DNA of 64,000 bases from Pseudarthrobacter oxydans. GTDB lineage: Bacteria > Actinomycetota > Actinomycetes > Actinomycetales > Micrococcaceae. Each line of letters opens with the position of its first letter. The first letter of the stretch is position 1. The notes under the pieces are model-generated. The model saw only the letters and a program-made list of their open reading frames with translations, was not told the origin of the DNA and ran no database searches. Positions 5,380 through 25,924 of the stretch are shown one piece after another. The stretch is from the NCBI RefSeq assembly GCF_030812335.1, contig NZ_JAUSSN010000001.1, positions 558,001 to 622,000 of the forward strand. The letters are read 5' to 3'. The position numbers were made by a program, and so were the translations under genes.

Positions 5380-5410
5380 CAGACCACCGCATCCACAGAT
5401 TCGCCAAGCC

Positions 5411-5445
5411 CGACGACGGCGGATCCCCCCTTTCCGCCGTCGTCG
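5411..5445 (+). terminator. Strong hairpin inside the C4 acid sugar operon
   Basis: A perfect 13-bp stem, CGACGACGGCGGA paired with TCCGCCGTCGTCG around a 9-nt C-rich loop, separates the dehydrogenase from the permease gene. No T-tract follows, so it may attenuate or stabilise mRNA segments rather than fully terminate. Confidence 0.5.
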
Positions 5446-5495
5446 TACCAACCGTCCGGCCCTTCCAAGGACCGGTCCGTTAAAGGAGACACCCG

Positions 5496-6911
5496 ATGAG
5501 CGCTCTCGCTCTCCTGGCCATAGCCGCAGCAGGCGTCGCCCTGCTGCTCGTGGCCGTCATCAAATTCAAGATCCCGGCCTTCCTGGCACTGCTGGTTGTC
5601 AGCGTCGCCGTGGCCCTGGTCGCGGGCATCCCGCTGCCGGACATCGTTAAGACCGTCACCGAAGGCATGGGCGGCACGCTGGGCTCCGTCGCCATCCTCG
5701 TCGGCCTCGGCGCCATGCTCGGAAAGATGATTGAAGTTTCCGGCGGCGCCCAGTCGCTGGCCGGCAAGTTCACCGAGCTGCTCGGACCACGGCGCGTCAT
5801 CGCCGCCCTGACGTCCGCGGCCTTCCTGCTGGCCATCCCCGTCTTCTTCGACGTCGGATTCATCATCCTGATCCCCATCATCTACGGCTTCTCCAAGGCC
5901 GCCGGGGTCAATCCGGTCAAGATCGGACTGCCGGTCGGCGCGATCATGCTGGCCATCCACGTGGTTGTTCCGCCGCACCCCGGCGTTGTTGGCGGTGCCG
6001 GCATCCTCAATGCGGACATCGGCTGGACCACCATCATCGGGCTCCTGATCTGCATCCCTGTCGGTGTGCTCGGCTACTTCGTTGCCAAGCGGCTCAACCG
6101 CCGCGACTACGCCATGCTCCCCGGCACCGCGGAGCAATTCCGCCTCTTCGGCACCGGCAAATCAGAGGTCGAGCAGGACGCGCCCCCGTCCGGCGGCGTA
6201 GCCGTCAAGACCGCCGTCAAGACCGCCCCCAGCCCTGCCATGATCATCACCCTGATTGTCCTGCCGATCCTGATGATCATGGTCGGAACCGTCGGCGCCG
6301 TCCTGCTGCCCAAGGGCAGCCCGGCCGCCGACATCGCAGCCTTCGTCGGTTCACCCCTCATGGCCCTCCTGACCGCTCTCGGCATGGCCTACTACTTCCT
6401 CGGGATCCGCCGCGGCTGGTCCTCGCAGCACACCGGTGAGGTCATGGATTCCGCCCTCGCACCCACCGCCATCGTGATCCTGGTGACCGGCGCCGGCGGC
6501 GTCTTCGGAAAAGTCCTCACCGTCTCGGGCATCGGCAAGGCACTCGCCGAGGGGCTGCAGAGCGTGGGGCTCCCGCTGATCCTGATGGCGTTCGTGCTGG
6601 CCGCAGTGCTCCGGGCCTCCCAGGGTTCGGCCACCGTGGCCATCATCACCACCGCGGGCCTGCTGGCGACCTCCGTTGCCGACGGCGGATACTCGCCGGT
6701 GCAGACGGCCCTGATCCTGGTGGCCACCGGCTTTGGCGCGTTCGGCCTCAGCCACATCAACGACTCCGGCTTCTGGATCGTCACCCGGTACCTGGGACTG
6801 TCGGTTGCCGACGGGCTGCGCACCTGGACGGTCCTCACAACCATCCTGGGTGTGGCCGGCTTCGCCCTGACCTTCGTGGCCTGGATCCTGGTGGGAGGCC
6901 TGAGCGCCTGA
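5496..6911 (+). CDS. GntP-family sugar-acid:H+ symporter
   Basis: A 471-residue, very hydrophobic polytopic protein with roughly 12-14 membrane spans. It shows the GntP-type blocks LGAMLGKMIEVSGGAQSLA, HPGVVGGAGILNADIGWT and the C-terminal GFGAFGLSHINDSGFWIV. The family imports gluconate and other aldonates with protons. A good ribosome site (AAAGGAG) precedes ATG 5496. Its place between C4 sugar-acid enzymes makes threonate/erythronate-like acids its probable cargo. Confidence 0.93.
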   Translation: MSALALLAIAAAGVALLLVAVIKFKIPAFLALLVVSVAVALVAGIPLPDIVKTVTEGMGGTLGSVAILVGLGAMLGKMIEVSGGAQSLAGKFTELLGPRRVIAALTSAAFLLAIPVFFDVGFIILIPIIYGFSKAAGVNPVKIGLPVGAIMLAIHVVVPPHPGVVGGAGILNADIGWTTIIGLLICIPVGVLGYFVAKRLNRRDYAMLPGTAEQFRLFGTGKSEVEQDAPPSGGVAVKTAVKTAPSPAMIITLIVLPILMIMVGTVGAVLLPKGSPAADIAAFVGSPLMALLTALGMAYYFLGIRRGWSSQHTGEVMDSALAPTAIVILVTGAGGVFGKVLTVSGIGKALAEGLQSVGLPLILMAFVLAAVLRASQGSATVAIITTAGLLATSVADGGYSPVQTALILVATGFGAFGLSHINDSGFWIVTRYLGLSVADGLRTWTVLTTILGVAGFALTFVAWILVGGLSA

Positions 6912-7804
6912 TGCGTGTCCGTCTCGACGACTTAGTGGTTTCAGCCCTCCAGCAGGGATCGGCCGTCCCGGCCTTCACCTGCTATGACTTCACCACGGCG
7001 CTCGCCGTGGTGGGGGCGGCGGAGGAGGCAGGCCGCGGCGCTATCCTGCTCGTCTCGCCCAGCACGGCGGCCACTGCTAACGGCCTCCGGCTGATCGCGG
7101 CGCTGCGCGGCCTGGCCGACGGGGCCGGGGTTCCGGTCGCCGTGCAGCTCGACCACGCCTCGGACCTCCGGGTGATTGCCGACGCCGTGGCCGCCGGGGC
7201 GGACTCCGTCCTGGTGGACGGATCGTCGCTGGACTACGAGGACAACATTGCCCTGGTCCGGTCGGCACGCGCCGCCCTGGACGTACTGGCGTCTGATGGC
7301 GCGGGCACCGGCCCGGAGATCGTGATCGAGGCCGAACTCGGCGGCCTGGCCGGCGACGAGGACCGGGCGTTCGGATCCGACGCCGCAGGCAACGCCCCGG
7401 CGGCCGGCACGGCCGGGCTCACCGACTCCGCCCAGGTGGAGGACTTCGTGGCACGGACCGGCGCCCAGCTGCTGGCCGTGGCCGTCGGCAACGTCCACGG
7501 CAAGTACAAGGGCGAGCCGGAGCTGCGCTGGGACGTGCTGCAGGACATCGCAGTGCGGACCCGCGTTCCCCTGGTGCTGCACGGGGCCTCCGGAATCCCC
7601 TCCGCCGAGCTCGTGAAGGCGGCGGCCATGAATGTGGGCAAGGTCAATTTCAACACCGAGTTGCGTACCGGCGTCCTTGAGACCCTGGAGTCACGCACCG
7701 CGGCGCACCGGACCGACGGCGAGAACCTCCAGGGGCTGCTGGCCGACTGGGACGCCGCGGCCGGGACGTTTGCGGCCACGGCGCTGGCGACGCTCTCGCG
7801 CTGA
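6911..7804 (+). CDS. Class II (metal-dependent) fructose-bisphosphate-type aldolase
   Basis: The TIM-barrel class II aldolase motifs are present: QLDHASD with the first Zn-ligand His, EAELGGLAGDED, VGNVHGKYKG with a second His, and VLHGASGIP with the third. The start overlaps the permease stop by one base (TGATG), so translation is coupled. Known C4 acid pathways end with an AraD-type decarboxylase (OtnC/LtnC); here an FBA-type aldolase holds that position. Its substrate is therefore uncertain: a phosphorylated oxo-acid or a ketose phosphate. Confidence 0.9.
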   Translation: MRVRLDDLVVSALQQGSAVPAFTCYDFTTALAVVGAAEEAGRGAILLVSPSTAATANGLRLIAALRGLADGAGVPVAVQLDHASDLRVIADAVAAGADSVLVDGSSLDYEDNIALVRSARAALDVLASDGAGTGPEIVIEAELGGLAGDEDRAFGSDAAGNAPAAGTAGLTDSAQVEDFVARTGAQLLAVAVGNVHGKYKGEPELRWDVLQDIAVRTRVPLVLHGASGIPSAELVKAAAMNVGKVNFNTELRTGVLETLESRTAAHRTDGENLQGLLADWDAAAGTFAATALATLSR

Positions 7805-11229: not shown

Positions 11230-12720
11230 TCAAAGCGTATCCTCGGTGATCCGGACCGCCAGCATGCAGGTGGTCAGCCCGTCCAGGGTGTCGAGACGGA
11301 CGTTCAACAGCCGCGACATCAGGGCCAGCCGCTTGCTCAAAGTATTCCGGTGGATGTACAGCGCCTGGCAGACCCGGGACGGCTGGGCGTCATGCTCAAG
11401 GTAGGCCCGGAGCGTGGACAGCAGCTGGCCGTTGCTTGCCCGGTCGTAGTGGAGGAGCGGAGCGAGCAGGTTCTCCGCGGCGGCGTGGGCGCCGCTGCCC
11501 GCGGTCGCCACCACCAGGGATCCGATGCTCATCGGGGCCGCGATGGAGGGGCCCTGGACCTCCCGGACCAGGCGCTGGGCATGGGCCAGGCCAAGCCGCA
11601 CCTCATCCACGCTGCGCAGCGGCCCCTTGATCACCAGGGGAAGCCCGGGGACCATCCGCCCGAGCGAGTCCAGCAGCCGGTCCGGGATCACGTCCCAGTC
11701 CGCGGCGGTGTCGGTCCGGGCCTGGGCGAGGGCATAAAACGCGCCGCGATAGGTGAAGACGTAGGCGTTGTTCAGGTGCTCCTGTACTGCCAGCCGAATC
11801 CGCCAGGCGTGCGGCAGCTGGCTCTTGTCCGGCCCGGCCACCACCAGGAAGGTGGGTGCGTGCGGGTCCAGGCCCGTGGCCCGGAACGTCCGGGTCAGCT
11901 CCTTCAGGGCCACGCCCTGCCAGTCCTCCAGCTGGTGCATCAGCTGCTCAAGCTTGGCCTGGTGCGGGACGCTGGCCTTGAAGGCGCTGTTGAGCTGCAT
12001 GGCAAGAATGGACGACGCCGGCCCGATCAGGGTAGCGAGCGGCTCCCCGGTGGTCCCGCCCCGGACCACAAGCTGGAAGTGGTCCGTTCCGCCGGTGGGG
12101 AGCGCGAAGCTGGACCCGGCGGTGCCGCGCCCGTCGGTGCGGAGGTCCTCTGCCGTCCAGCGTGAACTCGCCGGCCAGCAGCTGATCAGCGCGCCGGTGG
12201 TGTCAAAGATTGCGCAGTGGCCTCCTGCCGCGGTGCCCACCTCCGCCAGCACGGCCTTGAGCGATCCGCCGGACCGCGCGGCCTTTGCGCACAGGTCGGC
12301 CAGCTCCCACGACTGCCGGGTGAGGGCAAAGCGCTCGGCCTCGAGGACGCTCGTGACGAAGCGCTGCAGCTGCAGGGCCGGAACCACGCTGGGAACCTCC
12401 AGCAGCGGAATCCCGTGGGCCTTGGCCGCCTCCACCAGCGGGGTGGGAATTAGCCGGTGAGCCACGCCCGTGACGAACGCGATGGCACAGACGGGGACGC
12501 TGGCCAGCCGTTCGACGTAGGCGTCCCAGGTCCGCTGGTCGAAGAAGTTGAAGCCGATTCCGTGGGTGATGAGCAGGCAGTTGGCGCCCAGGAAGGGCGT
12601 GGGGTCCAGGAACTCCGCCGGGGCGGTGTAGCTGATGGACGTGGCCAGGCTCTTCGCCGTGGACGGGGTGTGCAGCCTGAGCTGGAGCGAGTCCTCCGCC
12701 AACAGATCCTGGACTCTCAT
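11230..12720 (-). CDS. PucR-family transcriptional regulator of the pxp operon
   Basis: A 496-residue protein with an N-terminal PucR ligand-sensing domain (MRVQDLLAEDSLQLRLHTPS through residue ~130), a central GGDEF-like linker, and a C-terminal PucR-type helix-turn-helix (ALYIHRNTLSKRLALMSRLL). The family activates purine, allantoin or amide catabolism. ATG 12720 is preferred over 12774 because GGGAGG lies six bases upstream. It is divergent from pxpA across about 120 bp containing an inverted repeat, so it very likely controls that operon. Confidence 0.9.
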   Translation of the reverse strand: MRVQDLLAEDSLQLRLHTPSTAKSLATSISYTAPAEFLDPTPFLGANCLLITHGIGFNFFDQRTWDAYVERLASVPVCAIAFVTGVAHRLIPTPLVEAAKAHGIPLLEVPSVVPALQLQRFVTSVLEAERFALTRQSWELADLCAKAARSGGSLKAVLAEVGTAAGGHCAIFDTTGALISCWPASSRWTAEDLRTDGRGTAGSSFALPTGGTDHFQLVVRGGTTGEPLATLIGPASSILAMQLNSAFKASVPHQAKLEQLMHQLEDWQGVALKELTRTFRATGLDPHAPTFLVVAGPDKSQLPHAWRIRLAVQEHLNNAYVFTYRGAFYALAQARTDTAADWDVIPDRLLDSLGRMVPGLPLVIKGPLRSVDEVRLGLAHAQRLVREVQGPSIAAPMSIGSLVVATAGSGAHAAAENLLAPLLHYDRASNGQLLSTLRAYLEHDAQPSRVCQALYIHRNTLSKRLALMSRLLNVRLDTLDGLTTCMLAVRITEDTL

Positions 12721-12777
12721 GATGCCCTCCCGGTGCGTCGTCGACGTCGGAAAAACGGTGTGCAAACTGCCCACTTG

Positions 12778-12813
12778 CTTACAAAGTTAGTGGACATTTG
12801 CCCACTATGTAAG
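12778..12813 (+). promoter_or_regulatory. Nested inverted repeat between PucR regulator and pxpA
   Basis: CTTACA and TGTAAG form outer arms and AGTGG/CCACT inner arms around a short centre. TGCCCACT also recurs at about 12768. The placement in the divergent gap suggests the binding site of the PucR-type regulator. Confidence 0.5.
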
Positions 12814-12841
12814 GCGTGGGGCAATCCCTAATGTTGAGTGC

Positions 12842-13597
12842 ATGAAGAATGTTAATGTGGCGAATGTCACAGCCGAAATCGAGATTAATTCGGACATGGG
12901 TGAAGCGTTCGGGCTGCACAGCTTCGGCAACGATCTGGCGCTGATGGAAATCATTGATGTCGCCAACGTGGCCTGTGGTTTCCACGCCGGGGACCCGGAC
13001 ACCATGGAAGAAACCGTCGCGGCAGCCAAGGCGCACGGCGTGCGGATCGGTGCGCACCCGGGCCTGCCGGACCTGACCGGCTTCGGGCGCCGGGAAATGA
13101 AACTGACCCCGGCCGAGGTCGAGTCCATCATCCTGTACCAGACGGGTGCCCTCGTGGGTTTCCTGAAGAAGGCCGGACTGGAACTCAACCACATCAAACC
13201 CCACGGCTCCCTGTACGGGATGCTCTCGCGGGACCCCGAGCTGATGCGGGCCGCCGCGAACGTCGCGGCGCTCTATGGGGTCCCGATGTTCGGCCTCGCC
13301 GGAACAGCGCACGAAAGCGTCTGCGCGGAAATGGGCGTGCCGTTCGTCGGGGAACTCTACGTGGACCTGAACTACAACCCCGCCGGCCAGCTCATCATCC
13401 AACGCCGGCCCGAGGCCACGGATCCTGCCAAGGCCGCCGAGCGCGTGCGCCGGGTCCTCAAGGACGGACTCGTGGAAACCTCGGACGGCTCGACCGTAAG
13501 CATCGACTTCACCAGTATCTGCGTCCACTCCGATGCCCCCGGTTCGCCGGCCGTGGCGCAAGCCGTACGGGAAGCCCTGGACGCCGGCAGCCAATGA
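12842..13597 (+). CDS. pxpA: 5-oxoprolinase subunit PxpA (LamB/YcsF family)
   Basis: The 251-residue TIM-like LamB/YcsF protein shows EINSDMGEAFG, VACGFHAGDP, RIGAHPGLPDLTGFGRR and HIKPHGSLYG, with the conserved Asp/His residues of the family. PxpA combines with PxpB and PxpC to open 5-oxoproline to glutamate with ATP. It leads an operon in which biotin carboxylase and BCCP genes are inserted between pxpA and pxpBC. Related complexes may act on other lactams or amides. Confidence 0.92.
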   Translation: MKNVNVANVTAEIEINSDMGEAFGLHSFGNDLALMEIIDVANVACGFHAGDPDTMEETVAAAKAHGVRIGAHPGLPDLTGFGRREMKLTPAEVESIILYQTGALVGFLKKAGLELNHIKPHGSLYGMLSRDPELMRAAANVAALYGVPMFGLAGTAHESVCAEMGVPFVGELYVDLNYNPAGQLIIQRRPEATDPAKAAERVRRVLKDGLVETSDGSTVSIDFTSICVHSDAPGSPAVAQAVREALDAGSQ

Positions 13598-13640
13598 TCT
13601 CCCATGCACTGCCCCACCCACCGCAACTGAAAGGCACCCC

Positions 13641-13886
13641 ATGTCACACCAAGTCACCTCGCCGCTTCCCGGAGTGTTCTACCGCAAGCCCGGCCCGGAC
13701 AAGGATCCCTACGTGCAGGAAGGCGACCGCGTCGAGGCGGGCCAGACCATCGGCGTCGTCGAAATCATGAAGCAGTTCAGTGAAGTCAAGACGGAAGTGG
13801 CCGGGAACCTGGTCAAGTTCGAGGTGTCGGATTCAGGCACGGTCAACCCGGGTGACGTCATTGCAGTGATAGAGGAAAAACCATGA
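13641..13886 (+). CDS. Stand-alone biotin carboxyl carrier protein
   Basis: An 81-residue biotinyl domain with no Pro/Ala-rich linker. The carrier Lys is K44 in EIMKQFSEVK, where the usual EAMKM has become EIMKQ. The hammerhead strands VTSPLPGVFYRKP and VAGNLVKFEVSD complete the fold. It overlaps the biotin carboxylase gene by 4 bp (ATGA) and is almost certainly that enzyme's carrier. A good GAAAGG site precedes ATG 13641. Confidence 0.9.
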   Translation: MSHQVTSPLPGVFYRKPGPDKDPYVQEGDRVEAGQTIGVVEIMKQFSEVKTEVAGNLVKFEVSDSGTVNPGDVIAVIEEKP

Positions 13887-15238
13887 AGAAACTGCTTATC
13901 GCCAACCGCGGGGAGATCGCGGTACGGATTATCCGCACAGCCCGGGAACTGGGGATCCGCACGGTGGTGGTGGCCAGCGAACCCGACGTCGACGGGCTGG
14001 CGGCCCGGCTTGCGGACGAGCACGCGGTCATTGGCCCCGCCCCGGCCAGCCAGAGTTACCTGGACCATGCCGCAGTCCTGAAAGCGGCAGGGGATTTCGG
14101 CTGCGACGCGGTGCATCCCGGCTACGGGTTCCTGTCCGAGAACGCAGTCTTCGCCCGGGCGGTCATCGACGCGGGGCTCATCTGGGTGGGCCCGTCGCCG
14201 GAAGCCATCGAGCTGATGGGGGACAAGGCGCAGGCCCGGCAGGCGGCCGAGGCGGCGGGAGTCCCCACCCTGCGCGGAACCCACGGCGAGGCCCCCACCG
14301 GCGACGCGCTGCTCGAAATCGCGGCCGAGATCGGCTACCCCCTGGTGGTCAAGGCGGCCGCCGGCGGCGGCGGGCGCGGAATCCGGCTCGTGACACGGGC
14401 GGAGGACCTGGCCTCAACCGTCGAAGTGGCGCAGGCCGAAGCGGCCGCCGCGTTTGGCAGCGCCGCCGTCTACCTGGAGAAGTTCGTGGAACGCGCACGG
14501 CACGTTGAGGTCCAGGTTCTCGGCGACGGCACCAACGTGGTCCATCTCGGGGACCGGGACTGCTCCATGCAGCGGCGGCAGCAGAAGATCCTGGAGGAAG
14601 CACCCGCCCCGGACCTGCCGGACGCCGTCCGGCAGCACATGCTGGAGTCCTCCGTGGAACTCGCCCGGCAGTGCCACTACAAGGGGCTGGGCACGGTCGA
14701 ATTCCTATACGACCCGGTCAACCACGAGGTGTCCTTCATCGAGATGAACACCCGTCTGCAGGTGGAGCACCCGGTCACGGAAATGGTCACCGGCCTGGAC
14801 CTGGTCCGCGAACAGCTGCTGATTGCCGCCGGGGAGCCGCTGCGGATGCGGCAGGAAGACGTCGTCTTCCGCGGCCACGCCTTCGAATTCCGGCTCAACG
14901 CCGAAGACCCGTCCAAGGGCTTCATGCCTAGCCCCGGGCTGCTGGAGCGCCTCGACTGGCCGGGCGGGCCTGGTGTCCGCATCGATTCCGGCTTCGTCGC
15001 CGGATCCACGGTGATGCCTTTCTACGATTCGCTCCTGGCGAAGATCATCGTCTGGGACGAGACCCGGGACGAGGCCATCGGCCGGTCCATCCGCGCCCTG
15101 GATGAGATCGCGATCGAAGGCGTCTCCACCACGATTCCGCTGCTGAGCGCCGTGCTGCACCGGCCGGAACTGAAAACCGTGGAACACCACACCAAGTTCA
15201 TCGAAACCTGCCCGGAGATCCTGGGGGACCTGTCATGA
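13883..15238 (+). CDS. Biotin carboxylase subunit (AccC-like)
   Basis: A full-length 451-residue biotin carboxylase with KKLLIANRGEIAVRIIRTAR, the ATP-grasp glycine loop KAAAGGGGRGIR, the RDCSMQRRQQKILEEAPAP motif, and the catalytic EMNTRLQVEHPVTE. It carboxylates the biotin on BCCP using bicarbonate and ATP. No classical acyl-CoA carboxyltransferase is nearby; PxpB and PxpC, relatives of the urea-carboxylase CT domain, follow with a 4-bp overlap. That argues for a dedicated complex rather than fatty-acid synthesis. Confidence 0.93.
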   Translation: MKKLLIANRGEIAVRIIRTARELGIRTVVVASEPDVDGLAARLADEHAVIGPAPASQSYLDHAAVLKAAGDFGCDAVHPGYGFLSENAVFARAVIDAGLIWVGPSPEAIELMGDKAQARQAAEAAGVPTLRGTHGEAPTGDALLEIAAEIGYPLVVKAAAGGGGRGIRLVTRAEDLASTVEVAQAEAAAAFGSAAVYLEKFVERARHVEVQVLGDGTNVVHLGDRDCSMQRRQQKILEEAPAPDLPDAVRQHMLESSVELARQCHYKGLGTVEFLYDPVNHEVSFIEMNTRLQVEHPVTEMVTGLDLVREQLLIAAGEPLRMRQEDVVFRGHAFEFRLNAEDPSKGFMPSPGLLERLDWPGGPGVRIDSGFVAGSTVMPFYDSLLAKIIVWDETRDEAIGRSIRALDEIAIEGVSTTIPLLSAVLHRPELKTVEHHTKFIETCPEILGDLS

Positions 15239-16146
15239 GCGATACCCTGAGCGCCGACTCGCTGAAGGGCACGGCACGCTACACCTGGGGCGGGGACGAG
15301 TTCCTGTTCGTGGAAATCTCCGAGGCCATGAGCCTGGCCGCGAACTTCAAATCCAACTCGATGGCCACCCGGCTCGGCGGCCGGGCGCTGCCCGGCGTGA
15401 CCGAAATCTGCCCCGCCAACGCGTCCCTGCTGGTCCGCTTCGACCCCGACGTGCTGGGCGCCGCGGAACTGGAAGCTGCAACCCGGGAGATCGAAGTCGA
15501 AGTGGACAACACCACCCACCCGGTGCTGAACACCCGGCTGATCGAAGTGCGGGTCTGGTACGACGACCCGTACACGAGGGAAACCGCGGCACGCTTCCGC
15601 AGCGGCCACCAGCGGCCCGAGGGGACCGACCTGGATTTTGCGGCCGAGGTCAACAACCTCTCCGGTGCCGCGGAGTTCATCCGGCGCCATCACAGCAGCC
15701 CCTGGCTGGTTTCGATGGTCGGGTTTGTCGCCGGTCTGCCGTTTATGTTCCAGATGGTGCCCCGCGAGCAGCAGCTGGAGGTGCCGAAGTACCTCAGCCC
15801 GCGCACCGACACACCACCGCTCACCGTCGGCCACGGCGGGTGCTTCGCCTGCATCTACTCCGTCCGCGGCGCCGGCGGCTACCAGATGTTCGGCATCGCG
15901 GCGGCGCCGATTTTCGACCCGGCGCAGTCCCTGGCGGACTTCAAGGACTTTATGGTCTTCTTCAAACCCGGCGACATCGTCAAGTTCCGGCCCATCGATG
16001 AGGACGAATACAAGATCATCAAGGGTCAGGTGGAGGCGGGCACCTTCGTCTACAAGCAGGTGCCGGTTACGTTCGACCTGGCCGAGGCCCTCGGCGACCC
16101 CGAGAGCTACAACACCAAGCTATTGGAGAACCTCAATGACTCTTGA
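15235..16146 (+). CDS. pxpB: 5-oxoprolinase subunit PxpB (KipI family)
   Basis: A 303-residue carboxyltransferase-domain subdomain 1 (AHS1) protein: RYTWGGDEFLFVEISEAM, the conserved HHSSPWLVSMVGFVAGLP and the ending VGHGGCFACIYSVRGAGGY. It is longer than typical ~220-residue KipI/PxpB proteins, matching the forms found with biotin carboxylases and in urea carboxylase. It overlaps its neighbours on both sides, by 4 bp with the biotin carboxylase gene and 11 bp with pxpC. Confidence 0.9.
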   Translation: MSDTLSADSLKGTARYTWGGDEFLFVEISEAMSLAANFKSNSMATRLGGRALPGVTEICPANASLLVRFDPDVLGAAELEAATREIEVEVDNTTHPVLNTRLIEVRVWYDDPYTRETAARFRSGHQRPEGTDLDFAAEVNNLSGAAEFIRRHHSSPWLVSMVGFVAGLPFMFQMVPREQQLEVPKYLSPRTDTPPLTVGHGGCFACIYSVRGAGGYQMFGIAAAPIFDPAQSLADFKDFMVFFKPGDIVKFRPIDEDEYKIIKGQVEAGTFVYKQVPVTFDLAEALGDPESYNTKLLENLNDS

Positions 16147-17095
16147 GATCTTGGAACCCGGCCTGTCAACGACGGTCCAGGACCGTGGGCGATTCGGCCA
16201 CTACAACGTGGGAATCCCGCAGGGCGGCTCCATGGACCAGCTCTCCGCGGAGATCGTGAATGCCCTGGTGGGCAACAGCCTTGAGGAAGCGGTGCTGGAG
16301 TGCACCTACCTTGGCCCGAAGTTCCGCACCTCCGAACCCGCGGTCATCGCCGTGGGCGGGGCCCCGGTGGACGTGAAAGTCAACGGGGCCACCGCCCCGC
16401 AATGGGAAGCCATCGAACTCGCCGCCGACGACGAGGTGTCCTTCGGCTTCCTCCAGGGCGGCACCCGCTATTACGTGGCAGTCCGCGGCGGCATCGACGT
16501 GCCCCTGGTGCTCGGCAGCCGCTCGACGTACGCGCTTGGCGCCCTGGGCGGCTATCTGGGGCGCAAGCTCGCCGCCGGGGACGAGGTCCCGGTCGGTGAC
16601 ACGGCCTCCGGGGACGTCCTCACCGGCATCGCCCCGGAGCTGCGGCCGGCGTTTCCGGCCGAAACGGAGATCAGGGTCCTGTTGGGCCTCTACGACCACC
16701 GGCTGACCGCCTCAGGGCTCGCGACCCTGCTGGATTCGACCTGGACCCTCACCCCGGTGGCCGACCGGACCGGCCTGCGGTACAGCGGGCCGCAGATCGA
16801 ATGGAAGGCGCGGGAACAACCCTTCGGCGCCGGCTCCGATCCCTCCAACATCGTCGACGCCGGCTATGCGGTGGGTTCCATCCAGATCCCCGGCGGCAAC
16901 GAACCGATAGTCCTGCACCGCGACGCCGTGTCCGGGGGAGGCTACGCCATGGTCGCCACCGTCATCAGCGCCGACATGGACCAGCTCGCCCGCAGCGCCC
17001 CCGGCACCAAGACGCGGTTCGTCGCCGTGACCATGGAGGAAGCCGTCGCGGCCCGCGCGGAAGGCAAAGCCCTCCGCCGCTCCATCTGGGGATAA
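16136..17095 (+). CDS. pxpC: 5-oxoprolinase subunit PxpC (KipA family)
   Basis: The 319-residue AHS2/KipA protein begins LEILEPGLSTTVQDRGRFGH and contains GIPQGGSMDQLS, GSRSTYALGALGGYLGRKL, and GSIQIPGGNEPIVLHRDA. These are the hallmarks of the biotin-dependent carboxyltransferase-like subunit that partners KipI/PxpB. It is the last gene of the five-gene operon. Start ATG 16136 overlaps the end of pxpB. Confidence 0.92.
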   Translation: MTLEILEPGLSTTVQDRGRFGHYNVGIPQGGSMDQLSAEIVNALVGNSLEEAVLECTYLGPKFRTSEPAVIAVGGAPVDVKVNGATAPQWEAIELAADDEVSFGFLQGGTRYYVAVRGGIDVPLVLGSRSTYALGALGGYLGRKLAAGDEVPVGDTASGDVLTGIAPELRPAFPAETEIRVLLGLYDHRLTASGLATLLDSTWTLTPVADRTGLRYSGPQIEWKAREQPFGAGSDPSNIVDAGYAVGSIQIPGGNEPIVLHRDAVSGGGYAMVATVISADMDQLARSAPGTKTRFVAVTMEEAVAARAEGKALRRSIWG

Positions 17096-18630: not shown

Positions 18631-19545
18631 CTAGAACTCCCACTCGACACGAGGTTCAATTACGATGCAGTCGATGTGGACGCCGGCCGCCACCGTGCCC
18701 CCGAAAGTGTCATTTGAGCCAAACGCTATGTGAATGGTTTTGTAAGCTTTCTCATCCTCCAGAATGTTCCCAATCACCCGGGCCGCGTGATTGGTTCCGA
18801 TACCGAGTTCTGCAACGTTGCGGCCAGGACCATCTCCGAGCAGACCAAGGAGCTTGTTCCCGGTGTCACCCGTCGCATCGACAAGTCGACCCTCCGCGAT
18901 CGTGAGCAGCACTGGCTCTGTCACGAGCCCAAGGCCAGCAATGGAGCCATTAACTTCGAGCAGCCCCGAAGCCTTTCCCTCATCCGGTGCGATATATGCC
19001 TCCCCGCTGGGAAGATTCCCAGATGTTCCTCTCGTCCGGTAGACCCCGGTGCTGGCGATGCCATGGCGTTCAGCGACGGGCACTTCCAAGACCCGGTCCA
19101 CACCCGTGCGAATACGTACCAGAGAAGCGGCTGTTAGCCGGGCGGTCATTGCTAGAGTCTCTGCTTCCACCCGCGCGTAGTCTGCCGTCATCGCTCCCTC
19201 GGTCAACATGGTCGAGGTGATACCAGGCATGGTCACGAATGCGATGCCCTGTGCATTGGCTTGTTTGCGAGCAGATGTGTGCGTCAACGAGTGTTTGGTC
19301 ATGGCGAAGACCAGGTCTGCGGAACGGATCGCCTCGACTGCCTCTTTCGGAGGCTCTTCACCGGACTTACTCAGATCAATCATTTGGTGCACACTCGGCT
19401 CCACACCATGAGCGCGAAGTCCCGCGATAAATTCCTCCGCCACTGGCGCAGTTGTGTTATCGGTGAGCACCAGGACTCGTTCATATTCATGGACTGGAAC
19501 GTTCTGCGAGATAACGTTGGCCACTGTCGCAGCGATGTCAGACAC
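18631..19545 (-). CDS. M29 aminopeptidase/NicX-like metalloprotein
   Basis: The 304-residue protein resembles the thermophilic M29 aminopeptidase and 2,5-dihydroxypyridine dioxygenase (NicX) superfamily. It has an N-terminal Rossmann-like half (YERVLVLTDNTTAPVAEEF), then TSGNLPSGEAYIAPDEG with a likely metal-ligand Glu, ELGIGTNHAARVIGN, and IHIAFGSNDTFGG...GVHID carrying candidate His/Asp ligands. It is the last gene of the operon and overlaps the AroM gene by 8 bp. It could hydrolyse an amide/peptide bond or open a ring; which one cannot be decided from sequence. Confidence 0.78.
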   Translation of the reverse strand: MSDIAATVANVISQNVPVHEYERVLVLTDNTTAPVAEEFIAGLRAHGVEPSVHQMIDLSKSGEEPPKEAVEAIRSADLVFAMTKHSLTHTSARKQANAQGIAFVTMPGITSTMLTEGAMTADYARVEAETLAMTARLTAASLVRIRTGVDRVLEVPVAERHGIASTGVYRTRGTSGNLPSGEAYIAPDEGKASGLLEVNGSIAGLGLVTEPVLLTIAEGRLVDATGDTGNKLLGLLGDGPGRNVAELGIGTNHAARVIGNILEDEKAYKTIHIAFGSNDTFGGTVAAGVHIDCIVIEPRVEWEF

Positions 19546-20227
19546 GAGGATCGGAACCTTTCGCTTCAGGGCGGGAAAAGCACTCTTGCACCGTGGCGGC
19601 GATCAGCGACTGGGGTAGAACTACAGGAAGATCGGTAGCAGCTCTCACACGGTCACGGTGCCAGGGCGAGTAGCCCATGCAGTCGAGCACAATTAAGTCC
19701 GCTCCTTGATCTCTTAGTTTGATGGCTGCCTCCGTCGGATCGCTGCCATCATAGGGAGACGAGGAGGCCACAGAGATCCGGCCCGGGAAGTCCAGCCATT
19801 TCTCTCTCATGTGATGCATCTGTTCCGGTAGCGGAACGAGCAACCCTAGATGGGAAACAAAGGTCAACCCGCGGACCACACCGGATACGAGTTGGTCGGG
19901 GTATATCATCGGCGTGCGCGTGCTGAGCTCGGGAAAGCTACCAGTGCACGCCATGACGACGGCATCCACCTTATTGCCGAGCTGATCCAGCTTGTCAGCA
20001 AGCCGCGGCACGAGCGCTTCCTTGCTGATCCGGACCGGCGCACCTGTTCGCAACTTCGAGATATACACAACGTCGTCGGCTGAAGGTAGCAGTGCGGCCC
20101 ACTGGTCTTCACTCACGTCGTCGAGAGCTCCGGCTTCCAGAATGTCGATGTCGGGGAACCGGGCAAAAGGGGCGGCGATGTCTGACCTGGGCGACTGGCC
20201 GATGGTAAGTAAGCCAATCCTAGGCAT
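19538..20227 (-). CDS. AroM family protein
   Basis: The full-length AroM signature is visible: IGLLTIGQSPRSDI, ILEAGALDDVS, ACTGSFPELSTRTPMIYPDQ. Two cysteines, C94 (ACTGSF) and C183 (LDCMGY), sit about 90 residues apart at the positions that bear catalytic cysteines in the Asp/Glu/hydantoin racemase superfamily, so racemase- or isomerase-like chemistry is plausible. AroM has no established activity. Its stop region overlaps the next gene and its start overlaps the end of the DUF1177 gene, indicating coupled translation. Confidence 0.88.
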   Translation of the reverse strand: MPRIGLLTIGQSPRSDIAAPFARFPDIDILEAGALDDVSEDQWAALLPSADDVVYISKLRTGAPVRISKEALVPRLADKLDQLGNKVDAVVMACTGSFPELSTRTPMIYPDQLVSGVVRGLTFVSHLGLLVPLPEQMHHMREKWLDFPGRISVASSSPYDGSDPTEAAIKLRDQGADLIVLDCMGYSPWHRDRVRAATDLPVVLPQSLIAATVQECFSRPEAKGSDPRV

Positions 20228-21164
20228 TCACCCCACCCCCTACAGTCTGCAGGTGACTCAGATTCCCGTACAGTTCGGTCAGCCGCGAGTACTCGTCCGC
20301 GTCGTAGAACTGTGCCCGTTGGCCGGTGAATTCCTTGGCCGCTTCAATGCAGAACCTCGCCGCGGAGGCGACATCGGTCTCGTGGCTTGCTCCGGTGGCA
20401 CTGCCTGGGACTACGGAAGCGGACGTAATGGCCAAACCGACCACAGGAGCCGCGGTGGCGACCGCGGGCTGGAGAATACTGTTGATATGGAAGACACCGT
20501 TGCCGTAGGGGGTGATGTCCTGCGTGGTGACAGCGAAGGTGTGGGCCGCCTCGCCGGTCGTCATCTCCAGCAGCCTGACCAGGTCATCAGAGAACTTCAG
20601 AACGTAGCCGGACTTGACCGTAGGCGACAGCGCAATCCCTCGGTGGTTGAAGACCCGGTTTCCCTTCGTTGTGTCCACTGAGATGACCGCGTCCATGTCT
20701 GCTTTGACTTCATGACTGTTCATTGTGGAGATCTCCACGGGCGAGTCCATGAACTCCACGGGTTCATGGGGGAGCGTCGGTGCATCCTGGCATATGTGGG
20801 TTGCGATGATTACATCCCCGGGCAAACGGTCACCCCGAGTGCTCATCTCCGCGAGCTTGAGTGCCGCGGAGATCACGGCGATGGCTCCATCTCCGTCTGA
20901 CACCGATCCAATCCTGGTGGGCCGAGCGCCAATGCCACCGAGTCGGCCAATGAGTCCCAAAGTGGGGTTCGTGCCGCCCGCAGTCCGTCCGTTCACGCCG
21001 GCGATTGTGATGCAGATGAAATCCGTGCTTCCTTTGACACCGTGCACGGTCTGCACCGCCGCGGAGCAGTGTCGGTGATCAGTAAATAGGTCTGCGACGT
21101 TCTGGCCACCGACTTTGGGGTGATCGAGCATGTCGGTAATCTCGAGTACCTGTTTCAGCGTCAT
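20220..21164 (-). CDS. DUF1177 family protein
   Basis: The 314-residue protein matches DUF1177 through TLKQVLEITDMLDHPKVGG, the HICQDAPTLPHEPVEFM block and MNSHEVKADMDAVISVDTTK. The His, Asp and Glu residues in these blocks look like metal ligands, and the fold resembles the di-zinc M28/M20 amidohydrolase type; that is inference. No member has a known reaction. Overlaps of 8 bp with aroM and 4 bp with the DUF917 gene tie it to this operon. Confidence 0.82.
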   Translation of the reverse strand: MTLKQVLEITDMLDHPKVGGQNVADLFTDHRHCSAAVQTVHGVKGSTDFICITIAGVNGRTAGGTNPTLGLIGRLGGIGARPTRIGSVSDGDGAIAVISAALKLAEMSTRGDRLPGDVIIATHICQDAPTLPHEPVEFMDSPVEISTMNSHEVKADMDAVISVDTTKGNRVFNHRGIALSPTVKSGYVLKFSDDLVRLLEMTTGEAAHTFAVTTQDITPYGNGVFHINSILQPAVATAAPVVGLAITSASVVPGSATGASHETDVASAARFCIEAAKEFTGQRAQFYDADEYSRLTELYGNLSHLQTVGGGVNA

Positions 21165-22228
21165 CTCAGCACACCTTCGGCGTTGGCAAGGATAGGTTTA
21201 CCGATGACCGGCTCGATCGCTTTGAGCAGTTTCGGGTTGTTCATGGTGCTGCTTAGCAGAAGTTGATCCCGTGGCACGAGAATCGTCGTGACGGAGCGGC
21301 CTTCGCATAGCTCTGCGCTCACGATGGGCTCACCTGTGGCGGTATCCAGAGTCATAATTAGGTCGGGGAAAGTTCCTACCCGTTGACCAGCGATTTCGGC
21401 CGTCATGTACTCGTTCCAAATAGTCAGCTCAATGTCGCCGATGAGCACCTCGCCGACATCAAAGCCGCCTGACTCGACCATGCGAAAGCTGGTAACTGTT
21501 CCGGTCGAGAGCACGCTACCGCCGAGGAAATCGATGACGGCGCTAACTCGAGAAGCACCCGACGTACGCGCGTGGTAAACCTGGCCGAGCTTAATGGCCT
21601 GGGTGATGCCCCCTAAGGCAGCGTTCTGGGACAGATATTCAATCGATACCGGGTTGCGGCAGACGCTGACCATACCGCCTGCCTGGATAGAGACAGAGCG
21701 CACTGCGCTGGATGCCAAATCCAGGCTCGCTGAGACGGTTCCTGCTATTTGACGGGTTCCCTTGCCTCCAGCGAAGGCCTGGAAGGAAACGTAGTCCTCG
21801 AGCTCAGAAAGGTTAAGGGCTCCCATGGAACCTGTGGGGTGTGCCCGACCATTGGCTGGGCTGTCGAGCACCGGGAGCCCTAGAGCCGCTGCCTGCAGCC
21901 AGCCGTTGGTCGTCGTGGCGGCGCCATTTTCGTTTGTCATGATCGCGACAATCGGGACATCGTTCCTGACGCGGGCAACGCTGTCGATCATCTGGTCGGT
22001 GCTGAGATACATCTCTTTGGCGGATGGTGCGCCGACGAGCGCGACGCAGGGCACTACGGCATCTGAGTCGAATTCATCGATAGTAGCCAATTCCGGGGCG
22101 TGCCGGGGAAATATCTCAGCGGCTTTGCTCAAACCTTCAGCCAAGCGACCACCGCCGCCGCCGCCGAGAATGCACCCACCGTAGATCGCGTTGATTGCGT
22201 CATCGTGAGTCAGGGTTCGTCTAGTCAT
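21161..22228 (-). CDS. DUF917 (S-methyl-thiohydantoin desulfurase-like) protein
   Basis: The 355-residue DUF917 protein starts LTHDDAINAIYGGCILGGGG, typical of the family N-terminal domain with its Cys and Gly-rich loop. It continues with VGAPSAKEM and NENGAATTTNGWLQAA. Relatives act on hydantoin/thiohydantoin rings or lie in hydantoinase-like operons. The start is two bases beyond the OPT transporter stop. It suggests that the imported compound, or an intermediate, is a five-membered cyclic ureide or thioureide. Confidence 0.82.
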   Translation of the reverse strand: MTRRTLTHDDAINAIYGGCILGGGGGGRLAEGLSKAAEIFPRHAPELATIDEFDSDAVVPCVALVGAPSAKEMYLSTDQMIDSVARVRNDVPIVAIMTNENGAATTTNGWLQAAALGLPVLDSPANGRAHPTGSMGALNLSELEDYVSFQAFAGGKGTRQIAGTVSASLDLASSAVRSVSIQAGGMVSVCRNPVSIEYLSQNAALGGITQAIKLGQVYHARTSGASRVSAVIDFLGGSVLSTGTVTSFRMVESGGFDVGEVLIGDIELTIWNEYMTAEIAGQRVGTFPDLIMTLDTATGEPIVSAELCEGRSVTTILVPRDQLLLSSTMNNPKLLKAIEPVIGKPILANAEGVLR

Positions 22229-22230
22229 TT

Positions 22231-23895
22231 TTATTTCGCCTTCCAGAGCGAGGAGAAGAAGCTGTACAGGGCGTCGCCAGCGATGAATCCGGCGGCCATG
22301 GTGACCATCGTGTCTTCGGCTGCAGGGCCCTTGATCTTTATGACCAGGAATCGGATGATCACGCCGGCCGCTACTGCCCAGCCAGCCATGGGGTTGAGGA
22401 TGATCAGGCCACTGGCCAACATGATTCCGAGTTGCCGCTTAGGTCCGCCGATAAACTGGATCAGCGCGCCCGGGATAGCCCACAGGGCCAGCTGTAAACC
22501 AGCGCTGGAATCGAGGCCGGCCTTGATCGTCGCGGCGAACACGCGATCGACTGGTGGTATCAGGCCCTGTGCAAAGAAGGACTGGTGGGCGAAGGCAACC
22601 ACTATAACCGCGACGCCAAGACCGATCACCGAACTCTTGAGCTGCAGCCTGCGACCATAAAGTTCTTCGGCCACAGGCATGCCGGCGCGTAGCAGGGCAC
22701 CGGTCTTAAAGTCGAACCCCATGTCGGCGAAGGCCGGACCTGTGGCAGCTGTGTAACCGCAAAGAAGCGCCAGGGCGATGGGAGGGAATCCCATGAGCAT
22801 TCCCAGCACGAGAACGATCAACGTAACGGCAAACGCCGGGAACCAGCCCGAATGCATGGCTGCGATACCGACAATGATCTGGTGCATAAAGGACGCGAAC
22901 GCTGCGAAGACCACAAAAAGCAGCAGGTAGCCGAATGACAGCTCGGCGAAGAGGCCACCCATGATTGCAACCAGGACAGCGCCGAGAACAAAGAGAAGAC
23001 CTCCGACGGAGAAGGCGCGTCTGACATCACGGTCACTGCGGGTGACGGCGGGGACAGGTGGCTCGAAGACGGACGCGGCTGCACCGCCGTGGACGGCACG
23101 ATCCTTTGGAACGATATCTTTACTCCCGGCACGCCGGGCAACCAGGAGGAAAATGAACTGGGCCAAGGCAACTAATCCGGCGCCGATCATCATGCCGTGC
23201 GGGACGTACATGGCGTTCAAGTTGATGTTGAAGAGCTGTCCCGAGTAACCCCGCGAAAGCAGACCCAAACCGAACATTGAAAGGGCCCAGATATTGCCGA
23301 TGAATGCTACGCCAAATGCTGACATGGGGATGCCGAAATGTGCGCCAACAGCACCACCAAGGATTCCGAAGCCGAGGAGTTTGGCCTTGTTGCCGCCTTC
23401 ATCTCCGGCCCTGATAGTTTCAGCTGAGGCTACACCGGCCGGCCAGGTTTCGTGTGCCCCGAACAGTTTGGAATCGAAGACCCGGTAGAGGACAAAGACG
23501 TCCAGCGCCATTGCCATGGCCGCTCCGATAAGCATCGGTACGACCAGCTCGGGCATTCCAAGTGCCCACGGAATGCCGATCGGAATCAACAAACTGTTAG
23601 CCGCGCCGAAGGTGGCAGCCGAAACCGTTGTCTGAATGAGGTTCTGGTTGTGAATGTTCCGGAACTTCAAGAACATCTGCATCGGGATTCGCGAGATTAT
23701 CATGGCGAGAAGCACACCGATGATAGAGGTATTCGGGCTGATACCGAGGGTCGTGATTAGTTGCATGCCAATGATCGCGCCGAAGACTGCAATCAAGGCA
23801 GAGACCACGAAAAACGTTATGCCGAAGGGTTTCTTCGACATGACGTGCGTGTGGTCTCCACTCAAGACTTCCCTACTCATGATTTCACGACTCAC
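22231..23895 (-). CDS. OPT/YSL family transporter
   Basis: A polytopic protein of about 554 residues with roughly 14 hydrophobic spans (GITFFVVSALIAVFGAIIGM, GIPWALGMPELVVPMLIGAA, GFPPIALALLCGYTAATGPA and others). It matches the oligopeptide/yellow-stripe-like family, which imports peptides, peptide-like molecules or metal chelates with protons. The GTG at 23895 overlaps the racemase stop (GTGA) and has GGGAG upstream; the upstream extension to 24018 is rejected. It is the uptake step of this operon. Confidence 0.88.
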   Translation of the reverse strand: MSREIMSREVLSGDHTHVMSKKPFGITFFVVSALIAVFGAIIGMQLITTLGISPNTSIIGVLLAMIISRIPMQMFLKFRNIHNQNLIQTTVSAATFGAANSLLIPIGIPWALGMPELVVPMLIGAAMAMALDVFVLYRVFDSKLFGAHETWPAGVASAETIRAGDEGGNKAKLLGFGILGGAVGAHFGIPMSAFGVAFIGNIWALSMFGLGLLSRGYSGQLFNINLNAMYVPHGMMIGAGLVALAQFIFLLVARRAGSKDIVPKDRAVHGGAAASVFEPPVPAVTRSDRDVRRAFSVGGLLFVLGAVLVAIMGGLFAELSFGYLLLFVVFAAFASFMHQIIVGIAAMHSGWFPAFAVTLIVLVLGMLMGFPPIALALLCGYTAATGPAFADMGFDFKTGALLRAGMPVAEELYGRRLQLKSSVIGLGVAVIVVAFAHQSFFAQGLIPPVDRVFAATIKAGLDSSAGLQLALWAIPGALIQFIGGPKRQLGIMLASGLIILNPMAGWAVAAGVIIRFLVIKIKGPAAEDTMVTMAAGFIAGDALYSFFSSLWKAK

Positions 23896-24539
23896 GAAGC
23901 TCTCCCGGGGGTAATAAGGGTCAACGCAGTAGCTTGTGCTTCTACGAGATCGATAATGGGTATTGTGATCTGTTCGGCCAGGTAGGACTTGAGGTCGATG
24001 GTGGAAAATCCGGTGCACGCGAACAAGATAACGTCTGCGCCTTCCCGGCGGGCGTCCTCCGCAAGCCTGAGGAGTGCTGGTTTGGCGCTGTCTTCAAATA
24101 GGTCAGTGGCCTTGCGGTGCTCCGGTGAAAACCGGTAGGAGTGGAAAGCTTCTCCCAGAGCAGCGCGCATGCGAGGAAGTGCTTCGTCGAGTATGCCGAT
24201 AACAGCGATCTTTTCGCCCACCATCCGTGCAGCAAAGGCGCCTGCCTGACCGGCGCCGATGACTGGCAGGTCAGTGTGCTCCCGGACCAGGGTGAGCCCT
24301 GGATCCGCAGCACAACTGATCGCAAGAACCTGTACGCCGGGCTCTGCTTCTAGCTCCTTAGCCAGTGCGAGGATCTTTGGTTCTGCGACCAGTTCAGTGG
24401 CCTCGTCATGTATGCCATGCGGCTGATCCTGAATGCACCTGCTCAGCGTGGCTATTCCCGTCTGCGCTTCGATTCTTCTGCCGTGCTCCAACAGGACATT
24501 CTCATTCTCGGTAGTGAGAACGCGGATGATTCCAAGCAT
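23892..24539 (-). CDS. Asp/Glu/hydantoin racemase-like protein
   Basis: The 215-residue protein has the two catalytic cysteines expected of the superfamily: C76 in AISCAADPG and C175 in FACTGFST, each near the end of a strand, and the loop VIGAGQAG between the halves. The chemistry would be cofactor-independent proton transfer (racemisation or isomerisation) or C-N cleavage as in maleamate-type relatives. It is the first gene of the operon, 128 bp downstream of the regulator gene. Confidence 0.88.
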   Translation of the reverse strand: MLGIIRVLTTENENVLLEHGRRIEAQTGIATLSRCIQDQPHGIHDEATELVAEPKILALAKELEAEPGVQVLAISCAADPGLTLVREHTDLPVIGAGQAGAFAARMVGEKIAVIGILDEALPRMRAALGEAFHSYRFSPEHRKATDLFEDSAKPALLRLAEDARREGADVILFACTGFSTIDLKSYLAEQITIPIIDLVEAQATALTLITPGRAS

Positions 24540-24667: not shown

Positions 24668-25924
24668 TCAGAGCCGACCTTGAACCCGCAAACAGAAGTG
24701 CAGAAGGAAGACAGTCTCAGAGTTACCGAGGTCCATTCCGAGGGCTTTGCGGATTCGTTCCAATCGGTAGCTAACGCTTCTTCGAGTCAAGTACATGCGC
24801 TCTGCTGTGCGAACCACATTTGTGTTCTCTTGGAGGAACAAAGCCAGAGTGTCTATTAATTGCTTGTCCTGCTCCAGCGGAGCCAAGACTCGTCGGGCGT
24901 AATCCTGCACTTCCTGATCGGAGAATAGCGGCATCAACAGCTCATGTAGCCCTATCTCAACACTTGAGTAGACACGCACAAGCGGCAACCGCTGTTTGCC
25001 TAAATCAAGGACCCGAACGGCCTGGTCGAAATGCTGGGCAAGCTGTGACGATCGTTTGAACTCCGAGCTGACGGCCAGAGCGGTGCTTCGGAAGGCAGCG
25101 TTCTTGCCAAGCAGCGAGTCCAGCTGCCGCTGAACGCGCTCCCGGTCAGGAAAACCACTCTCGGGGTGCAGGGCAATGAGTATGCCCAGGCGATTACCGT
25201 GGATGAATACGCCATGACCGGGCAGATGCCGGATAGCCTCCGGGCGCCAATCCGTGGACTCTTCTATAGCCCGGATGACGAGACGTTTTCCCGCGCGTCT
25301 GCCTAGCGCCTGATAGTCCAATGGGAATGACCGAGACTGCAGGAGTGAATATCGTTGGAAATCTACGGCGAGGACGACGTATGTGGGCTCAGCTGTACGG
25401 AAGTGACCGCCACGAATATGGTTCTCTAGCTCGCCTACTAGGTCCTCCATTCGGAAGGAATGGGAAGCTGTGTCGTACAGTTCCCCAATCATGACCATGT
25501 AGATCTTGTCACCAATCTCCTTCAGGAATGAGTGCTCAAGGAGCAACGTATGAAGATCAAAGTTGGACCGCGAGGTCAAATGGACGAAGGCAAAAGGCTG
25601 TCCCCGAAAAGTGAGGGGAAGAATCACGTGGTGTTCCGTGCTCACCAACGGCAGTTGGGCGACGGAATACATGGGCAGTTCCTCTGCCCACGACTTCAGG
25701 TATGTGCCAGCCTCCGGGTTGCTTGGTGCCGAGAACATACTGAAGTCGGTTCGCCAATCGTCTGCCACAAGGCTCCTTGAGGCGAAGAGCAGGTTTCCGT
25801 TCGTGTCCTCGATATAGACGGTTGCTTCTAGCCGAGTAGAAATAAAGTTAAGGGTCGACTGGATATCGAGCTGCTTATAGCTCTCGAAAAAATAGCCGGG
25901 TGGTGTGGCATTGGAACTTGACAT
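24668..25924 (-). CDS. CdaR/PucR-type helix-turn-helix regulator
   Basis: A 418-residue protein. Residues about 20-130 look like a GAF/PAS-type sensor (VYIEDTNGNLLFASRSLVA, HHVILPLTFRGQPFAFVHLT), a GGDEF-like middle follows, and the C-terminus has the PucR HTH_30 motif YLTRRSVSYRLERIRKALGM. Start ATG 25924 is preferred because AGGA precedes it; the frame continues to 26002 without a ribosome site. It is co-oriented just upstream of the OPT/DUF917/DUF1177 operon and probably activates it in response to its substrate. Confidence 0.83.
   Translation of the reverse strand: MSSSNATPPGYFFESYKQLDIQSTLNFISTRLEATVYIEDTNGNLLFASRSLVADDWRTDFSMFSAPSNPEAGTYLKSWAEELPMYSVAQLPLVSTEHHVILPLTFRGQPFAFVHLTSRSNFDLHTLLLEHSFLKEIGDKIYMVMIGELYDTASHSFRMEDLVGELENHIRGGHFRTAEPTYVVLAVDFQRYSLLQSRSFPLDYQALGRRAGKRLVIRAIEESTDWRPEAIRHLPGHGVFIHGNRLGILIALHPESGFPDRERVQRQLDSLLGKNAAFRSTALAVSSEFKRSSQLAQHFDQAVRVLDLGKQRLPLVRVYSSVEIGLHELLMPLFSDQEVQDYARRVLAPLEQDKQLIDTLALFLQENTNVVRTAERMYLTRRSVSYRLERIRKALGMDLGNSETVFLLHFCLRVQGRL

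Follow-up and report, generated by a model that had tools for sequence, protein, structure and literature searches.

The 64,000-nucleotide stretch of Pseudarthrobacter oxydans DNA analysed here (positions 558,001 to 622,000 of contig NZ_JAUSSN010000001.1, hereafter the window) carries a six-gene operon that most likely imports and degrades small, perhaps ring-shaped, peptides. A run of six open reading frames (ORFs) occupies the minus strand at window positions 18631-24539 and is read in the order racemase, OPT, DUF917, DUF1177, AroM and M29-like. An earlier reading of the sequence (the original prediction) had named six consecutive minus-strand genes of these families, and both the ORF positions and the Pfam matches confirm it. 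The features are as follows.

23892..24539, minus strand: Asp/Glu/hydantoin-racemase family protein with cysteines C76 and C175 (PF01177, 2e-25)
22231..23880 (ATG at 23880) or 22231..23841 (ATG at 23841), minus strand: OPT-family oligopeptide transporter (PF03169, 2.4e-34)
21161..22228, minus strand: DUF917/S-Me-THD-like protein (PF06032 and PF20906, the S-Me-THD N- and C-terminal families; 1.2e-19 and 1.6e-25)
20220..21164, minus strand: DUF1177, a predicted hydrolase of zinc-exopeptidase fold (PF06675, 6.6e-128)
19538..20227, minus strand: AroM, with cysteines C94 and C183 (PF07302, 8.2e-63)
18631..19545, minus strand: short M29-family metallohydrolase of 304 residues, by its sequence a probable amino- or dipeptidase (PF02073, 1.1e-10)
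24668..25921 (ORF open up to 26002), minus strand: regulator of the PucR/CdaR family (HTH_30, 9.1e-15)

The genes were also said to be separated by overlaps or 2-bp gaps throughout. This holds at four of the five junctions, namely a 2-bp gap between OPT and DUF917, a 4-bp overlap between DUF917 and DUF1177, and 8-bp overlaps at both DUF1177/AroM and AroM/M29; it fails between the racemase and OPT, where the gap measures 11 bp with the ATG at 23880 and 50 bp with the ATG at 23841. The PucR-family protein, encoded upstream on the same strand, is probably the regulator of the operon. Its ORF also has a GGDEF_2 match in Pfam, which falls below the cut-off for that family.

The same families recur together in many other genomes. 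A profile scan of genome contigs with a five-sequence DUF1177 alignment recovered at least 574 confirmed relatives, and the best 80 loci were analysed, counting same-strand genes up to 8 kb away from DUF1177 by means of hidden Markov models (HMMs) built from clusters of the loci's own proteins. Among these 80 loci, AroM accompanies DUF1177 in 71, OPT in 48, the racemase in 35, M29 in 32, DUF917 in 29 and S51 in 18; less frequent companions include the family-5 peptide-binding protein (SBP5; 15), M20 (10), nitroreductase (7), HyuA (7) and CDOB (5). Viewed by role, a peptide importer (OPT or an Opp/Dpp ATP-binding cassette (ABC) system) is present in 66 of the 80 and a peptidase (M29, PepE/S51 or M20) in 56. 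The full order racemase-OPT-DUF917-DUF1177-AroM-M29, as judged from the tracked families and allowing other genes to intervene, is found in 15 loci, and PucR directly precedes 13 of these. Because so many loci share the full order, most of them with the same regulator in front, the arrangement is well beyond chance. Bacillota have it, as does the actinomycete Leucobacter (locus L080), while the titles and taxonomy lines of the DUF1177 locus records extend to Bacillota, Actinomycetota, Pseudomonadota, Chloroflexota and a haloarchaeon. In addition, a sample of 149 genomes from the order of Paenibacillus chibensis contains 31 with DUF1177 over the cut-off, and these are the same 31 that carry AroM; the centre genome of this sample, picked for having the operon, is counted among the 31, and one genome besides these gives a weak DUF1177 match that stays under the cut-off. 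The co-occurrence that had been predicted is thus borne out in both the 80-locus and the 149-genome counts, and the operon is a real, widely shared bacterial gene set and not a one-off.

Two points temper the generality of this picture. The 80-locus counts are lower bounds, since 15 of the loci have less than 8 kb on a side, and they are biased towards the query's nearest relatives and ignore relatedness among loci. Furthermore, of 246 genomes sampled from the window's phylum, DUF1177 is present in five and a strong AroM is missing from four of those five, so AroM is not universal. In four genomes of one other family of that phylum (loci L002, L004, L005 and L006), DUF1177 adjoins ORFs that, judged by eye, resemble M29 and/or DUF917, and this arrangement, in genomes without a strong AroM, is possibly a further flavour of the operon.

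Some loci are composite. In Leucobacter chinensis (L080, 1-12784), two DUF1177 units adjoin one another, one with an Opp ABC importer and M20 and the other with the full six-gene order. In four Bacillota loci (L008, L010, L037 and L060), the DUF1177 operon adjoins an operon of a different type, with DUF917, HyuA and a cytosine permease; the neighbouring operon of L008, the sole locus tested in this respect, also includes a nitrilase-family protein.

The importers and peptidases of these operons appear to be exchangeable. M29 and S51 never occur in the same locus (0 of 80), DUF917 and S51 likewise never do, and OPT and SBP5 do so only once; when relatedness is ignored, the chance of the M29/S51 exclusion is estimated at 2e-5 and that of the OPT/SBP5 exclusion at 3.5e-6. 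The one S51 protein tested, that of locus L055, is identified as PepE by the NCBIfam equivalog (326.5 bits, cut-off 156), and PepE is described, in excerpts of the source, as hydrolysing Asp-X dipeptides (PMC11078827). The one SBP5 protein tested has the dipeptide-binding protein DppA as its best model, far under the cut-off (221.7 against 1005 bits). At the other extreme of complexity, 13 of the 80 loci hold just OPT, DUF1177 and AroM as tracked families besides IclR, with none of racemase, M29, S51, M20, DUF917, HyuA, nitroreductase, CDOB, SBP5 or Opp permease within 8 kb. In view of these minimal loci, DUF1177 and AroM look like the enzymatic core, which the remaining genes adapt.

For the DUF1177 protein itself, modelling predicts the zinc-exopeptidase fold (clan MH, comprising M28, M20, M42 and M17), an assignment that is new here. 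Its AlphaFold2 model, built from a 46-sequence alignment, has a predicted local distance difference test score (pLDDT) of 85.5 and a predicted template modelling score (pTM) of 0.89. When compared with the PDB by Foldseek, the model gave 254 matches at E <= 0.001, the best at 2.9e-9 and with TM-scores of about 0.5, and M17 and M28 aminopeptidases were at the top. By VIA-align, the 50 matches listed had Z-scores of 16.2-17.3 and root-mean-square deviations (rmsd) of 3.2-4.3 A over 219-263 residues; the partners include M28, M20, M42 and M17 enzymes, and one match aligned at 3.4 A over 227 residues. Within the family alignment, D90, H123 and D164 are conserved in all 47 rows and H261 in 45. In the modelled secondary structure, a helix begins at D90, while D164 and H261 are close to a strand and a helix; this would place all three where the metal ligands of M28 lie. 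The natural reading of this modelled arrangement is a metal-dependent amide hydrolase.

Several observations pull against that reading. DUF1177 differs from the zinc exopeptidases, with which it has the predicted fold in common (Z 16-17), in its apparently altered ligand residues and in profile similarity: hhalign gave no significant match to the M20, M28 or M42 profiles, and the exopeptidase kinship consequently rests on the predicted fold. A single-sequence search of the PDB returned just two weak matches, both to unrelated proteins (0.064 and 0.35). As for the ligands, placement by secondary structure identified no His at the first position and put H123 where a Glu would be expected, and H261 is lacking in two rows of the alignment. 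As the canonical set is apparently incomplete, the protein could hold a single metal or lack activity, and it may also be a metal-free or inactive relative. The VIA-align list also includes a non-enzyme relative, the transferrin receptor (3kas); sharing a fold does not show a function.

AroM, the second member of the putative core, is a distant homologue of the operon's racemase, as judged from their sequence profiles. The two profiles align by hhalign at 96.4% over 135 columns with their cysteine motifs in register, and the AroM profile finds the hypothetical hydantoin racemase 2eq5 in the PDB at 4.5e-4, the same entry that is the closest structure to the operon racemase (3.4e-39). The two-cysteine layout in both proteins had been pointed out in the original prediction, and the residues given are correct and conserved: C76 and C175 of the racemase occur in every one of 17 aligned rows, C94 of AroM is present in 26 of 26, and C183 in 25 of these, missing only from the row of locus L042, which is truncated there. 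Given this homology and the registered cysteines, the operon likely encodes two isomerase-type proteins, as had been anticipated. The distance between them is considerable, with AroM scoring 22.1 bits against PF01177 (cut-off 31) and 180.2 bits against PRK10481, the E. coli AroM-type equivalog (cut-off 198), and a single-sequence search of the PDB with AroM yielded no match up to E 0.1. A resemblance of predicted AroM structures to racemases for hydantoin and Glu/Asp is also reported in excerpts of a published study (PMC11055893).

A rival possibility is that the operon serves hydantoin utilisation by a racemase, a hydantoinase and an N-carbamoylase. Hydantoin racemases (2eq5, 3qvj) belong to the same sequence family as the operon racemase, whose family conserves two cysteines, and are its nearest PDB entries; a PucR-type regulator is present; and the seven loci noted above have HyuA-type genes within reach. 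Hydantoin systems nevertheless include a hydantoinase or carbamoylase partner, for which the window operon has no counterpart. No N-carbamoylase-type protein was found among the operon genes with Pfam and NCBIfam, and an HMM scan found no HyuA-type ORF in window positions 8001-36000, nor was such a gene found in 73 of the 80 loci. The three M20 proteins sampled from the neighbourhoods are of the DapE/ArgE or TIGR01891 amidohydrolase type and fall below the cut-offs of the carbamoylase models, and a Klebsiella version of the operon with OPT, DUF1177, AroM, PepE and racemase has neither HyuA nor DUF917 annotated beside it. Hydantoin as the leading explanation was rejected for want of its hydantoinase and carbamoylase partners, and we consider it unlikely.

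A related proposal, that of a thiohydantoin- or ergothioneine-type pathway, depends on DUF917, which would desulfurate a thiohydantoin and leave the racemase and hydrolases to finish the degradation. The protein is a member of the S-Me-THD families, and among NCBIfam models it matches best the two desulfurases for thiohydantoin and S-methyl thiohydantoin; the scores, however, are only about half of those required (NF058529, 230.6 against 440 bits; NF058532, 226.6 against 450 bits). DUF917 is also missing from 51 of the 80 DUF1177 neighbourhoods; other genes of the ergothioneine pathway were not specifically searched for. On these low scores and frequent absences, thiohydantoin was likewise rejected as the leading explanation; the pathway is improbable, and together with the sampled M20 proteins, which are not N-carbamoylases, these results leave the thiohydantoin or hydantoin chemistry of the original prediction without support. 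Only one PDB entry, 2o3i, matches the predicted structure of DUF917 (pLDDT 88.9) significantly; it comes from structural genomics and was deposited as a hypothetical protein. Beyond it the next E-value is 0.15, and the search speaks neither for nor against kinship to hydantoinases. DUF917 accompanies M29 in 20 of its 29 loci.

For the last gene, a NicX-like role had been envisaged, and this expectation found no support. The window protein matches PF02073 at 41.4 bits, over the gathering cut-off of 27, and its best single-sequence E-value in the PDB is 0.0011. Its family profile finds the NicX-type structure 7cn3 first (3.9e-15), followed by PepS, AmpT and AmpS, and this order of matches favours the idea of a pyridine or other ring cleavage in which the last gene encodes a NicX-type dioxygenase. 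The residues point the other way. E182, E246 and H272 align with E250, E316 and H345 of AmpT and are kept in 21 of 22 rows, whereas 7cn3 has Phe, His265 and Leu at these three positions; H290 and D292 are invariant in 22 of 22 rows and align with a conserved His and Asp. The window protein hence has all five metal-ligand residues of M29 (Glu, Glu, His, His, Asp). In terms of the Fe triad of NicX (H265, H318 and D320), it has a Glu (E246) at the H265 position and His and Asp at the other two. The gene is also swapped for S51/PepE in other operons, and ring cleavage by a dioxygenase is accordingly very improbable; a NicX-like role of the last gene was rejected on its M29-type ligand residues. 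The protein shares the five ligand positions with the M29 aminopeptidases AmpT (2ayi), PepS (4icq) and AmpS (1zjc); it is divergent in sequence, as the E-value of 0.0011 shows, and shorter, at 304 residues compared with about 410. These residues, along with the exclusive exchange with S51/PepE, make it a candidate peptidase or amidase of hydrolase-like character. The one row without E182, E246 and H272 is a second M29-like copy in locus L076 (2860-3843), immediately adjacent to a normal one; with Gln, His and Val in their place, it may be a NicX-type enzyme.

Taken as a whole, a transporter alongside hydrolase-type proteins, conserved across phyla, supports the import-and-degradation operon of the original prediction, and the modified or cyclic dipeptide named there as a plausible substrate is also supported. 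Specifically, the operon would take up and degrade a small amide derived from a peptide, most probably a dipeptide that is cyclic or altered in its stereochemistry. Going by its family, the OPT carrier would import the compound, whereupon AroM and the PF01177 racemase, with their conserved cysteines, would remove the alpha proton from a residue activated by a ring or an amide and so epimerise that residue. DUF1177, if its predicted fold reflects its activity, would hydrolyse an amide bond, perhaps opening the ring, and the M29 protein, replaced elsewhere by PepE or M20, would split the resulting dipeptide into amino acids; the exclusive replacement and the metal ligands are the grounds for this final step. 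DUF917 would perform an extra step for one substrate class, that of the M29 flavour, as it never occurs with S51/PepE, and PucR would control the whole. We judge this mechanism, in its entirety, about equally apt to be right or wrong.

Cyclic dipeptides are widespread and resistant to peptidases, and they are the favoured guess for the substrate class because of three circumstantial lines of evidence: loci with CDOB-type genes, published cyclodipeptide oxidase (CDO) clusters with the same families, and ring hydrolysis by P. chibensis. The CDOB-type genes lie beside nitroreductases and downstream of M29 in five of the 80 loci; the member in locus L024 was tested with PF19585 and the other four were recognised by an HMM built from the family. 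As for ring hydrolysis, P. chibensis DSM 329 is described in excerpts of the source as hydrolysing cyclo(Asp-Phe) and cyclo(Asp-Asp) by enzymes that were unknown (PMC3852281), and a P. chibensis genome (L049) carries the same gene order, although its strain identity with DSM 329 is not established.

There are, nonetheless, findings that count against this choice. CDOB-type genes were not found in 75 of the 80 loci nor in window positions 8001-36000, where HMMs from the loci likewise found no nitroreductase-family ORF. A separate CDOB search of five genomes or records gave no match anywhere. The two nitroreductases of L024 match general nitroreductase models only, below their cut-offs, so their identity as CDOA rests on the neighbouring CDOB. 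DSM 329 cleaved just two of the 11 cyclic dipeptides tested, with no induction by growth in their presence (PMC3852281, in excerpts), and ATP-dependent enzymes of the HyuA/B type are another published candidate for opening such rings (PMC6061476, in excerpts). Finally, no measured activity of any operon gene product was found in the literature searched.

A simpler account is the scavenging of linear peptides, such as acidic, beta-linked or D-containing dipeptides, with the racemases turning D- into L-amino acids after hydrolysis. The OPT/Opp importers and the M29, PepE and M20 peptidases would suit such a role, and PF01177 also includes amino-acid racemases; two racemase-type proteins and a dedicated DUF1177 nevertheless seem excessive for a plain peptide, and the CDOB-type genes of five loci also tell against it. 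This account is possible, if rather doubtful. The cyclic-dipeptide reading can be extended further, to a proposal in which DUF1177 and AroM form the core of a catabolic pathway for these compounds that is widespread and moves horizontally. AroM, with or without a second racemase, would epimerise the ring; DUF1177 would be a metal-dependent cyclic-dipeptide hydrolase on a zinc-exopeptidase fold; and the exchangeable importers (OPT/Opp) and dipeptidases (M29, PepE, M20) would tune the range of amino acids, with the PepE flavour serving aspartate-containing rings. That all of these parts hold jointly is put forward tentatively.

Most of the families have in fact been listed together before. Around CDOs that lack a cyclodipeptide synthase (CDPS), excerpts of a 2024 study in Nature Communications (PMC11055893) report enrichment of PF01177, DUF917, AroM, OPT, ABC di/oligopeptide transporters and peptidases, an accessory set in common with the window operon; the main text does not name DUF1177. 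These clusters differ from the operon in having CDOA (a nitroreductase) and CDOB (PF19585), and the function of their accessory genes was left open in the excerpts. As to whether the pathway had already been described, then, the family list had been published, in part, while no description of the pathway or its substrate was found in the literature searched, which excluded most subscription papers. The term DUF1177 turned up solely in a fungal DUF1996 study, in the excerpts available; DUF917 has only table entries in those of PMC12915319 and PMC9503626; and, for the terms tried, the operon families are not mentioned in those of a further CDO paper (PMC11760959). No assigned reaction for DUF1177 or AroM was found in the literature searched, DUF917 having the thiohydantoin precedent only. 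The enzymes that open cyclic dipeptides were called unknown in the excerpts of PMC3852281. The predicted exopeptidase fold of DUF1177, combined with the swapping of importers and peptidases, leads to one testable substrate class; if true, genes for opening cyclic dipeptides would be named, and a role suggested for many CDO clusters without a synthase.

In P. oxydans, the operon has likely been acquired horizontally, because of its low guanine-plus-cytosine (GC) content and its rarity in the genus. Its GC content is 58.3%, compared with 66.1% for the window, and when 5.9-kb segments were sampled every 500 bases, the eight lowest in GC all overlapped the operon. DUF1177 is present in two of 81 genomes of the genus, that of the window included; the other genome (L156, 6287-11591) has the S51/PepE flavour in a different order (S51, IclR, AroM, DUF1177, OPT). 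Related operons are also found on plasmids. A conjugative Klebsiella plasmid (NZ_CP057460.1; L154, 4559-9966) carries six genes, IclR-OPT-DUF1177-AroM-PepE-racemase, with transposase genes on both sides. This enterobacterial operon, known from annotation, has OPT, DUF1177, AroM, racemase and one dedicated peptidase in common with the window, and differs in having PepE for M29, IclR for PucR, and no annotated DUF917. The same gene set is found on a Sodalis plasmid, the sole megablast match among other plasmids, and at megablast sensitivity the Klebsiella operon had no match in E. coli genomes. Finally, a haloarchaeal plasmid carries an Opp ABC importer followed by DUF917, DUF1177, AroM, M29, a nitroreductase-like gene and a racemase.

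Two other gene groups of the window deserve mention. At 11230-17095, plus-strand genes for a biotin carboxylase and two carboxyltransferase-type (PxpB/PxpC-like) proteins are accompanied by a further PucR-type regulator encoded on the minus strand, and this is perhaps another catabolic cluster, of the cyclic-amide or urea type, converging on the operon. At 2850-7804, a kinase-type protein (SBD_N/NBD_C), a GntP permease and a class II aldolase make up what looks like an ordinary sugar-acid catabolic cluster.

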